A DNA stretch of 26,804 nt, taken from positions 1-26,804 of IMG/VR virus record IMGVR_UViG_3300025120_007533; one strand, written 5' to 3'. Shown piece after piece: positions 8,869 through 24,380 of this stretch. The position numbers were made by a program, and so were the translations under genes. This stretch comes from a virus. Below the pieces are notes generated by a model. That model was not told the DNA's origin, made no database searches, and was given only the letters and a program-made list of their open reading frames with translations. Positions within the stretch are counted from its first letter, which is position 1. Each line of letters opens with the position of its first letter.

Positions 8869-9491
8869 CCTTAAAATGGAAAGAATATCAAGATTACACT
8901 ATAGAACGTTTTGATTCTACTGGTGTTGAATATGATCCTTATTGGCATGTTTTCATCGAGGACATACTGCATCCCGAGTTGTTTAAACTAGTGCAAATTG
9001 AATGGCCCGACTTTGAAGCAGGACACTGGCAGTGGGCTTTTAGTAACAATGCAATAGATCAAAATCAAAATAGAAAAATATATCAACCTAACAGAACAGA
9101 CGGGCACGAGTTTTGGAAACAATACTACGACAATATAATTGATAACCCTAATATTATTAGTGCGGCATATAGACTAGAAGGTCTAACTACAACACCTGAT
9201 TATGTTACTGCAGGTGTTTGGGAAGATTACCATGGATATGCTGTAGGCAATCATATAGATCATTACAGTATTGATCTTGCATGGCAAACATACGTTTATT
9301 GTAGTGGCGGTGAAGGTTGGGGTACTAGCATGAATAACTCAGTAGGTAAACAACTAAAACGTTTCCCGTTTAAACAAAACAGTGGTTGGCTAATGCGTGT
9401 TGATGCTAACAGTTGGCACAGTTGTGATCCTGTGGACTGCGATGTACGTCGTAGTATTATGGCTCGTTTTATGACTTCACAGAGAGGGTAG
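8853..9491 (+). CDS. 2-oxoglutarate/Fe(II)-dependent oxygenase
   Basis: 212 residues from the ATG at 8853. The frame also allows a TTG at 8811, but nothing supports that start. The facial triad is visible: H134-I-D136 in GNHIDHYSIDLAWQ and the distal H189 in ANSWHSCDP, followed 10-11 residues later by Arg (VRRSIMARF) to hold 2-oxoglutarate. Between them lies GGEGWGT, then FPFKQNSGWLMR, the usual double-stranded beta-helix layout of prolyl-4-hydroxylase-like enzymes. Marine T4-like phages often carry several such genes; substrates (protein, nucleic acid or small molecule) are mostly unknown. It is isolated on the plus strand, divergent from the 8144 gene and overlapping the radical SAM gene tail-to-tail by 23 bases. 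Confidence 0.85.
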   Translation: MEHLSTLKWKEYQDYTIERFDSTGVEYDPYWHVFIEDILHPELFKLVQIEWPDFEAGHWQWAFSNNAIDQNQNRKIYQPNRTDGHEFWKQYYDNIIDNPNIISAAYRLEGLTTTPDYVTAGVWEDYHGYAVGNHIDHYSIDLAWQTYVYCSGGEGWGTSMNNSVGKQLKRFPFKQNSGWLMRVDANSWHSCDPVDCDVRRSIMARFMTSQRG

Positions 9492-10443
9492 AGTGTACTA
9501 GTTTTAAACTATTTTTTGCTTGTATATTTTTATTCACACATGCTCTATCCCACAATCCTTCATTCCAATTTATTGTACCAGCATAATGCTTGTAGTGAAA
9601 CTCCTCCGGATTTGTACAAATTGTTGTATGCCATATTGTAACACCTTGATCATCTATCCATTGTGCTAGTTCTGGTATATTATCAATATTATCCTTTTGG
9701 ATAACAGTGTTAACCATAAAATTAGGATTAAGTTTATCGCGTAGTATTTCAATATTAGTGTTAATTATATCCCAAATACAAAGTGTACGAATACGTTCTA
9801 TTGTTTCACCTGTGCCGTCAATACTTAAAACAAAACAAACATTAGTAAATGGTTCAAGTGCAGACATCATATGATCTGTAAGTATTGTGGCATTTGTATT
9901 AATAACTATTTCACAGTCTTTGTTTTTAATACCATTTAGCATTCGACTAAAACTTTTAATCATAAAAGGTTCACCGCCTGCAAGATATATACGTTTTGCA
10001 TTAGGACTTATTTGTATACTTTCTAGCTCTACTGTTCTATAAACATCTTCCTTGCCCAAGTATCTAGCCCATTCGCTGCTACTTTTTGCATTACACATTT
10101 GACAACGCAGATTGCAAAGATTACTGTATCTTAGATCATAACTTAATTCTTGTGGATTATGGAAATCTAAATCAGGATATTTGCGCATCCACTCTGATGT
10201 AAGTAACTGACGTTCACTAAAAGTTTTAAGTTGTTCTTGTTTTAAGCAGTTTGTACATTCAGACACAGGCTGATTATTCATCATTAATTGACGTATTTCA
10301 AATAGTCTGTCATCATCTATTTGATCACTACTAATACAACAAACTTTTTGTTCGTTATTAAGATCTATATGTTTATGGATAAAAGGTAATACGCAGAAAC
10401 TATTTTCGTATTTTAGAACATCTTTTAGTTTGATATCTGACAT
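9469..10443 (-). CDS. Radical SAM protein with an extra N-terminal Cys cluster (twitch-type)
   Basis: 324 residues. The SAM [4Fe-4S] motif CNLRCQMC is Cys110, Cys114 and Cys117 (CX3CX2C). YLAGGEPFM further on is the GGE motif that binds the SAM amino group. The first 70 residues carry further Cys at 17, 35, 36, 63 and 66 (FCVLPF, VCCIS, CTNC), which probably bind an auxiliary cluster as in SPASM/twitch enzymes, although here the cluster precedes the core. Many relatives modify peptides or sugars. The ATG overlaps the clamp-loader gene by 19 bases, so it is translated from the replication transcript. The substrate is unknown. Confidence 0.85.
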   Translation of the reverse strand: MSDIKLKDVLKYENSFCVLPFIHKHIDLNNEQKVCCISSDQIDDDRLFEIRQLMMNNQPVSECTNCLKQEQLKTFSERQLLTSEWMRKYPDLDFHNPQELSYDLRYSNLCNLRCQMCNAKSSSEWARYLGKEDVYRTVELESIQISPNAKRIYLAGGEPFMIKSFSRMLNGIKNKDCEIVINTNATILTDHMMSALEPFTNVCFVLSIDGTGETIERIRTLCIWDIINTNIEILRDKLNPNFMVNTVIQKDNIDNIPELAQWIDDQGVTIWHTTICTNPEEFHYKHYAGTINWNEGLWDRACVNKNIQAKNSLKLVHSTLSVKS

Positions 10444-22813: not shown

Positions 22814-23905
22814 TTACGCAGCCTTACTAACATCTTGAAGTTGTCCTTGTAGTGGATTTGCAGGATCAACTCCTAGGAAGTTGCCCCACTCTGCATAGTA
22901 GTGACGCATTCCAACTTCATCATGTATAGTCGAGTTCTCATGTCTGCCGTGCAGTATGTTTCTTGATTCTGTACCCTCACGCATTGTGGTACCTTGACCA
23001 GCAACACCAATAAGGTCTTCGTGCAAGTTTCTGCCGAAAGGTCCCCATATACTATTGTGATGCTTTATGCGTGTTTGTCTTTCCTCTGGTGTATCTTTTC
23101 GTAGTCCATAACCACGAAATTCTATTAGTACTTTGTTTGGTCCTAGTGGTGTTACTGAGTCACTGCGATATGCACTCCCGCGGAGGTTAAAGTTGAATCC
23201 TGGAAAGAGGTCAACCATGTACCACTGGTTGGGCGGCAAATTGGGAAAAGATAGTTCCCCGCGATCTTCAAATCCGTCATACTCTTCATAGTTAACAGTA
23301 AAGCTAGACACATTAACGTGACCATTATCAAAAGGGATATTTTTTCTAGCGAAATATTCGTCATTAAATCCACTCACTCTATTAAAGTAATGCATGAAGT
23401 CGTGATAAAATTCACTGTTTGTGTCATGCCACAATTTATAATTTGTATCTATAACTGCTTTGTGATAATGGAATACTTCCATTTCCTCTGTGTCAATTGC
23501 TTCAGCAATACAATCAAATGCGCCTGCTGTCCACTGATCTACACTGCAATCTGGATTTTCATTTAGTGTTACCCATACCATACCACCATGGTAAACTTCA
23601 CAGTGTAGTTCTTTGCCAGCGGCTTCGTTGCTGGCCATGTTACCTCTTACACTAGTGATGTTATCTCCAAGATATGCTTTTACGCCTGAACCTGTGTTCC
23701 ACGCAACCACACGCTGTCCTGCAATTTGACTTGTGCGGAAGTCACCTTGATTATACATCTCACTGATATGACACATGGGCACCCAAACTTTACTAAAGAT
23801 CAGTTCTTGTTCTTGTGTATATAGGTAGTGACTGTTATAAGCATCACTGCTGATGTGTTCTACTTTAGGTGTTTTGGTCCAGTTATTATGATTACGTGGT
23901 GGCAT
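22814..23905 (-). CDS. Oxygenase related to Rieske ring-hydroxylase alpha subunit, lacking Rieske ligands
   Basis: 363 residues from the ATG at 23905, which has AGGAGA 6 bases upstream; the frame also extends 30 bases further. The N-terminal YLYTQEQELIFSKVWVPMCH, then GDFRTSQIAGQRVVAW and VKAYL, follows ring-hydroxylating oxygenase alpha subunits. The expected Rieske pairs (CxH and CxxH) and about 40 residues around them are missing before EVYHGGMVWVTLNENP. The catalytic domain remains: NYKLWHDTNSEFYHDFMH offers Glu165, His168 and His172 (one residue closer than the usual H-x4-H), and GRNLHEDLIGVAGQG offers Glu296-Asp297. It probably binds mononuclear iron and needs an outside electron donor. 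It overlaps the AprB-like ferredoxin gene by 14 bases. Confidence 0.75.
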   Translation of the reverse strand: MPPRNHNNWTKTPKVEHISSDAYNSHYLYTQEQELIFSKVWVPMCHISEMYNQGDFRTSQIAGQRVVAWNTGSGVKAYLGDNITSVRGNMASNEAAGKELHCEVYHGGMVWVTLNENPDCSVDQWTAGAFDCIAEAIDTEEMEVFHYHKAVIDTNYKLWHDTNSEFYHDFMHYFNRVSGFNDEYFARKNIPFDNGHVNVSSFTVNYEEYDGFEDRGELSFPNLPPNQWYMVDLFPGFNFNLRGSAYRSDSVTPLGPNKVLIEFRGYGLRKDTPEERQTRIKHHNSIWGPFGRNLHEDLIGVAGQGTTMREGTESRNILHGRHENSTIHDEVGMRHYYAEWGNFLGVDPANPLQGQLQDVSKAA

Positions 23906-24380
23906 GTGTGTCTCCTGTGTACTCGTATTTAACAAATTTATTTTTACTAATCATGCGCAACCCGCCATCTGCTAGTAAGTATTCTGGTTCATGTGCTAGT
24001 TGCTGTGTATCGTTAAGTCCCGTTTCGGGCATGTCATACTCACTTGCACATTTTATACTGTCCCAAGGTGTTGTACGGATAGGACTTTCAAAGTGTTTTT
24101 CTCTGCCGTCTCTAAATTTAAGCCGCCAACTGATAACGCCTTTTTCTGGTTCTCGTAATACTCTGACCTTGTGGTTCATGGGCGCAAAGTCACTGTACCC
24201 TCTGTCGTCGATTGCATTTTGTGGACATGCTTTTATACAACTGTAACACTCCCAACAAAAGTTTGGTTCTATGTTTACTGCTCTTCGTGTTACTGGATCA
24301 ATGTGCATGATGTCACTTGGACAAATATCAACGCAATAACCGCATCCATCACAGGCGGTCATATATACAAATGTTGGCAT
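23892..24380 (-). CDS. AprB-like ferredoxin with two [4Fe-4S] clusters
   Basis: 162 residues. Cluster ligands are Cys10, 13, 16, 20 (CDGCGYCVDICP) and Cys42, 45, 48, 52 (CWECYSCIKACP). The following region (NAIDDRGYSDFAPM, VISWRLKFRDG, FESPIRTTPWDSI) matches the beta subunit of adenylylsulfate (APS) reductase, beyond what generic ferredoxins share. The first cluster loop is shorter than in standard AprB. In bacteria AprB passes electrons to the flavoprotein AprA, which is absent here. Instead the gene is coupled to an oxygenase, with the oxygenase ribosome site and ATG inside its 3' end. AAAGGAG precedes the ATG. Electron delivery to the oxygenase is the simplest inference. Confidence 0.85.
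   Translation of the reverse strand: MPTFVYMTACDGCGYCVDICPSDIMHIDPVTRRAVNIEPNFCWECYSCIKACPQNAIDDRGYSDFAPMNHKVRVLREPEKGVISWRLKFRDGREKHFESPIRTTPWDSIKCASEYDMPETGLNDTQQLAHEPEYLLADGGLRMISKNKFVKYEYTGDTHATT

Follow-up and report, generated by a model that had tools for sequence, protein, structure and literature searches.

The window and its oxygenase gene

The window is the whole stretch of DNA that was analysed, 26,804 nucleotides of an IMG/VR virus record (IMGVR_UViG_3300025120_007533) with a G+C content of 38%. PhoH, clamp loader and baseplate wedge families identify its source, a marine phage, as T4-like. On the minus strand, an A-type Fe-S carrier gene, a gene for a two-[4Fe-4S] protein and an oxygenase gene follow each other in the direction of transcription (Table 1). 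An earlier note, made from the sequence alone, had placed the oxygenase start inside the end of the preceding gene, and this is what is found: the 3′ end of the latter and the 5′ end of the former overlap by 14 nt, with AGGAG immediately 5′ of the oxygenase ATG. The Fe-S carrier gene possibly forms one transcription unit with the other two. Carrier genes of this type also lie near the Rieske-less oxygenase at five other loci (L003, L032, L033, L048 and L051), and at the last four of these they adjoin it directly on the upstream side, without aprB, so that in phages the oxygenase may be coupled to a supply of Fe-S clusters or iron. Elsewhere in the window (9469–10443, minus strand), a radical SAM protein with QueE-like similarity (phrog_2076) is encoded.

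Table 1. Features of the minus-strand gene group in the window.
Feature	Position	Strand	Basis
Rieske-less MsmA-type oxygenase subunit (SHORT), 363 aa	22814..23905	-	ORF, Pfam, alignments, AF2, Foldseek
Putative iron ligands H168, H172, D297 and bridging carboxylate E165 of SHORT	within 22814..23905	-	predicted
Site from which the Rieske cluster-binding segment is deleted, approximately residues 81–112	23570..23665	-	alignments, segment identity, loop dN/dS
AprB (APS reductase beta subunit, two [4Fe-4S]), 162 aa	23892..24380	-	NCBIfam, Pfam, structure matches
A-type Fe-S cluster carrier (ErpA/IscA/HesB-like), 101 aa	24471..24776	-	upstream of aprB, co-directional

The oxygenase, hereafter SHORT, matches the Pfam family Ring_hydroxyl_A (PF00848) above cut-off (E 4e-7), while the Pfam Rieske match is sub-threshold (E 0.15). 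An AF2 model based on an alignment of 69 sequences, which replaced one obtained with 20 close sequences (pLDDT 50), reached a pLDDT of 85 and a pTM of 0.87, with block means of 57–73, that is, moderate confidence, at residues 161–190 near the active site. The best PDB matches of this model in Foldseek are alpha subunits of Rieske oxygenases (TPADO, NagGH, CntA), which bears out the ring-hydroxylase-like character proposed in the earlier note. The protein has all four residues that the note had assigned to the mononuclear-iron side, E165, H168, H172 and D297, and none of them varies in an alignment of 69 homologs. In the cumene/biphenyl dioxygenase motif, E165 corresponds to the Asp and H168 to the first His; D297 aligns in 7vju. 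SHORT has the Ring_hydroxyl_A fold with the 2-His-1-carboxylate site of Rieske non-heme iron oxygenase alpha subunits, and lacks the CxH-Xn-CxxH [2Fe-2S] site that these carry on the same chain. The His spacing, regarded before as one residue short, is normal, as full-length MsmA, the alpha subunit of methanesulfonate monooxygenase, has the identical NSEFYHDFMH.

No CxH/CxxH pair was found in the 363 residues, either in the sequence itself or upon alignment to full-length MsmA. In that alignment the Rieske segment spans 66 columns, and SHORT has gaps in 45–48 of them, with an identity of 5–11%. The earlier note was right in that the site is absent, and went too far in taking the whole segment as missing: what is left is a variable loop plus LHCEVYHGGMVWV, and the alignments indicate a Rieske domain trimmed to a remnant rather than entirely lost. 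The loop at residues 57–107 (window protein P0001 and its equivalents) is hypervariable and of differing lengths, while the catalytic part is nearly fixed. Among phages, dN/dS was about 0.47 for the loop that replaces the Rieske segment and about 0.04 for the viral catalytic domain, both rough values from few unsaturated pairs.

SHORT is 53–61% identical to full-length MsmA, and this identity and the catalytic-domain tree show its relationship to the MsmA catalytic domain; the MsmA-diagnostic CxH-X26-CxxH motif is absent from it. Judged by its sequence, the gene encodes an MsmA-type subunit in which the Rieske segment has been deleted and the mononuclear-iron site is predicted to be intact. 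Relatives of the window oxygenase are encoded at at least 598 IMG/VR loci and, this number being taken together with the low dN/dS of the catalytic domain, the Rieske-less form is far beyond what chance would produce. Among named phages, a full-length relative was found only in the two records of the SAR116 phage HMO-2011 (71% identity), where the gene is annotated as methanesulfonate monooxygenase alpha. A Rieske-less viral MsmA is already known and the window protein is not unique in this respect, since Henriques and De Marco reported in 2015 that HMO-2011 MsmA and many virome sequences are devoid of the Rieske motif (PMC4433239).

AprB beside the oxygenase

The gene directly upstream encodes, as had been noted, a protein with two [4Fe-4S] clusters according to Pfam. 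By sequence this 8Fe ferredoxin is AprB: it scores 168.7 against a cut-off of 135.65 for the NCBIfam aprB equivalog, matches APS reductase structures, and contains two [4Fe-4S] motifs, the APS-reductase_C domain and the tail. It is 76–82% identical to AprB of five SAR116 genomes, where its partner is AprA; in the four genomes whose surroundings were read, the gene order is sat-aprM-aprB-aprA. We found viral aprB on 20 contigs, single-sequence and profile scans being in agreement, and a profile scan for more distant viral AprB yielded only those same 20 contigs. One locus is cut by the contig end; in the 19 informative ones SHORT lies immediately downstream of aprB or one gene further. Encoded with AprA in SAR116, AprB is without it in the viral loci examined. 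One oxygenase-aprB pair (L039/L166, IMGVR_UViG_3300021197_001489) is located on a 316-kb viral contig, far above the size of the other carriers.

The earlier note put forward that this ferredoxin reduces the Rieske-less oxygenase directly and replaces the fused Rieske domain. That the Rieske function resides on another polypeptide is an idea that our analysis supports; that AprB is this polypeptide appears very improbable. The pairing can be read in favour of it, as the oxygenase lies beside aprB, mostly with overlapping ends, at each of the 19 informative viral loci, and none of these loci yielded AprA. Counted from the oxygenase, however, the adjacency that the note had offered as a check breaks down: of 160 phage loci retrieved by searching with the oxygenase, only 9 show aprB and the other 151 do not (about 94%, some loci being incomplete upstream), which makes AprB an unlikely replacement for the Rieske domain. 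In addition, the host homolog belongs to sat-aprM-aprB-aprA, separate from the oxygenase operon, and the phage protein is an ordinary AprB throughout that keeps the tail motif AHEPxYL, which one would not expect to survive in a repurposed ferredoxin. The oxygenase does not need AprB, but in phages AprB occurs only in its company. Read most simply, both proteins serve two steps of one pathway, from methanesulfonate to sulfite and from sulfite to APS, with the host supplying the remaining subunits.

A complementary paralog in SAR116 genomes

A search of a genome collection retrieved full-length MsmA, mostly of 409–433 residues and with CxH-X26-CxxH, from Hyphomicrobium relatives, Filomicrobium, Methylocella and gammaproteobacteria. 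From SAR116, it retrieved a Rieske-less form of 362–364 residues that is 78–81% identical to the window protein. In the catalytic-domain tree the window clade groups with SAR116 SHORT (100/100), and the host of the window phage is, on sequence, likely of SAR116 type. For the HMO-2011 host IMCC1322, two MsmA annotations had been described, one of them with the Rieske motif (PMC4433239).

The SAR116 operon holds SHORT, a beta subunit, a Rieske ferredoxin, a 279-residue protein that we term X, and a second MsmA paralog of about 800 residues, FUS, in which the Rieske site, with its CxH-X26-CxxH motif, is followed by C-terminal Pyr_redox_2 and Reductase_C domains (an NADH/FAD reductase). The two paralogs are mirror images of each other. 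In 12 of 12 FUS proteins the four Rieske ligands are intact and the iron-site residues are all gone; SHORT keeps the iron residues and lacks the Rieske set in the two proteins tabulated. Identity to full-length MsmA in the Rieske segment is 86–91% for FUS versus 5–11% for SHORT, and the relation is inverted in the iron helix (17–33% versus 91–98%) and in the segment with the Asp ligand (10–17% versus 88–90%). The iron helix of FUS in a single-contig SAR116 genome (2,753,527 bases) is undeleted, its ligands being replaced (E to K, H to Q and H to K).

Both paralogs also occur together. Among 136 genomes of the SAR116 order, SHORT is present in 12, FUS in the same 12 and neither in the remaining 124; the FUS count includes one fragment and one broken frame, and the genomes are related, so these are not 12 independent events. 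Full-length FUS was found in 3 of 385 alphaproteobacterial genomes drawn, all in the SAR116 order. The beta subunit, the Rieske ferredoxin and protein X accompany the pair at 12 of 12 split loci. The usual reductase MsmD, carried by 50 other cellular loci, was found at none of the 12, as expected if the reductase fused to FUS took over from it. Protein X (L180:4953-5792 and equivalents), located between the Rieske ferredoxin and SHORT, is a conserved protein of 270–290 residues with no Pfam match; distant relatives (27–35%) are encoded near some full-length msmA genes. Further neighbours of the split operon are an ABC transporter, a TauE-like exporter and C1-folate genes, and in two SAR116 genomes sat-aprMBA lies about 10 kb away. 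This neighbourhood, sat-aprMBA included, fits methanesulfonate oxidation, and it is from the family and the genomic context that we take methanesulfonate to be the probable substrate.

Every one of the 12 split operons retains the gene for the free Rieske ferredoxin, MsmC, and this offers another electron donor: MsmC might reduce SHORT directly, with FUS acting chiefly as the NADH reductase of MsmC. Pyr_redox_2-type reductase domains, such as that of FUS, commonly feed ferredoxins, which would suit such a role. Against it, FUS retains the whole MsmA Rieske segment (86–91% identity), including the MsmA-specific 26-residue spacer, which a ferredoxin reductase would not need. We consider this route unlikely.

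We favour, with a probability of about 0.72, that a split methanesulfonate monooxygenase is common to phages and SAR116-type hosts and that the window gene encodes its iron-bearing half. The complementary loss of sites, the co-occurrence, the operon context, the selection on the iron site and the identity of AprB can all be read in the sequences. An ancestral one-chain MsmA, with Rieske centre and mononuclear iron, would have been duplicated in the hosts, and each copy would have lost one cofactor site: FUS the iron site, keeping the Rieske [2Fe-2S] centre and ending in the NADH/FAD reductase, and SHORT the Rieske segment, keeping the iron. Electrons would pass from NADH to the FAD of FUS and then to its Rieske centre, possibly via MsmC, and from there cross the subunit interface through the bridging carboxylate E165 to Fe(II) held by H168, H172 and D297 in SHORT, where O2 would be activated and methanesulfonate converted into formaldehyde and sulfite. 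Known Rieske oxygenases already work across subunits, a carboxylate relaying electrons from one chain's Rieske centre to the iron held by the adjacent chain; two sites placed on alternating subunits thus need no new chemistry. As E165 is invariant and aligned to the Asp of cumene dioxygenase, an alternating SHORT/FUS hetero-complex is plausible. During infection, SHORT would come from the phage and FUS, MsmB and MsmC from the host. In the minority of phages that add AprB, this protein would most likely dock on host AprA and aid the conversion of sulfite to APS and sulfate.

One half in phages and comparison with known systems

FUS, MsmB, MsmC, MsmD, protein X and AprA were not found in the viral loci examined, nor was CxH-X26-CxxH in any MsmA frame there. 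A profile scan for a viral Rieske-reductase partner gave 64 matches, nearly all at 26–33% identity, and those examined turned out to be SHORT. Two apparently cellular SHORT genes from Hellea and Rickettsiales MAGs (L193, L195) lie on contigs that look phage-like. They were left out of the host count, and for Rieske-less msmA a host assignment based on MAGs may in some cases be a binning artefact.

In the catalytic-domain tree, other viral Rieske-less proteins fall inside gammaproteobacterial full-length MsmA, and the full-length label requires three changes, forced by well-supported branches. The viral proteins concerned form two further groups (L271, L273, L274 and L278; L281, L284 and L286). 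A gammaproteobacterial full-length query recovered seven viral relatives, on contigs already known to be Rieske-less. The tree suggests that phages lost the Rieske segment repeatedly, and again in gammaproteobacterial-type MsmA; in the L281 group, the loop may instead have been exchanged between phages and not have arisen by independent deletion. The cellular relatives found for these further clades are full-length MsmA only, which means that a FUS partner cannot be general. We tentatively propose, at somewhat less than even odds, that marine phages have more than once removed the Rieske segment of MsmA and that the iron half plugs into Rieske-bearing hetero-oligomers of the host, made of FUS in SAR116 and of ordinary MsmA in gammaproteobacteria. 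Of the parts of the enzyme, the iron half may be the first to suffer damage from its own oxygen chemistry; a parallel is the psbA carried by cyanophages.

A protein that lacks the cofactor ordinary MsmA needs, and that is encoded without partners, might have no catalytic role and instead join the MsmA oligomers of the host as a decoy or regulatory subunit, blocking or redirecting them. The invariant iron ligands and the catalytic-domain dN/dS of about 0.04 speak against this, as does the occurrence of the Rieske-less form as a regular member of the msm operon in SAR116, and we consider this explanation very unlikely.

Ocean virus surveys list phage msmA as a sulfur-cycle auxiliary gene (PMC10134843), and the protein as annotated cannot function alone. 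A likely partner in the host operon recasts this puzzling, seemingly defective phage gene as one part of a testable two-part enzyme. If the split-oxygenase reading is true, an oxygenase is shared between phage and host, SAR116 methanesulfonate use is predicted to run on an architecture unlike that behind the standard msmA marker, and the NdmC/NdmD design arose independently a second time in SAR116. Another Rieske oxygenase divided by nature would help to study electron transfer between two metal sites separately.

As to known systems, SHORT shares with MsmA of MsmABCD its catalytic segments (about 82–98% identity), the MsmB and MsmC neighbours, the transporter and the TauE context, and differs in lacking the Rieske segment with its CxH-X26-CxxH and in having the fusion partner FUS in place of MsmD. 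The MsmA of phage HMO-2011 (phage1322_61) is a 71% identical ortholog that is Rieske-less too; there, no aprB match was found, and the window phage is T4-like, which we take HMO-2011 not to be. Phage AprB has the cluster motifs, the APS-reductase_C domain and the tail of the adenylylsulfate reductase beta subunit, but its loci are devoid of aprA and its neighbour is the oxygenase. The statement of the earlier note that no enzyme of this layout had been described was too strong, in view of the published motif loss in HMO-2011 (PMC4433239) and of a split Rieske oxygenase already described, the caffeine N7-demethylase NdmC/NdmD/NdmE of Pseudomonas putida CBB5 (PMC4408171). There, as in SAR116, where a Rieske-less oxygenase and a Rieske-reductase fusion lie in one operon and the phage has one half, the non-heme-iron oxygenase subunit is without a Rieske cluster and the Rieske domain is on the reductase polypeptide (PMC4408171). 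By sequence and by this analogy, SHORT/FUS is best described as a split Rieske oxygenase. It belongs to another subfamily and would act on another substrate; NdmD has an FMN domain, while FUS has a Pyr_redox_2-type reductase and retains parts of a defunct oxygenase domain; the SAR116 operon showed no GST-like NdmE; and one half carried by a phage has not been reported for Ndm. We found no published description of the SAR116 pair in the open-access literature, and what is new here is the likely partner of the phage protein, the mirror-image paralog FUS in the same 12 genomes of the SAR116 order.
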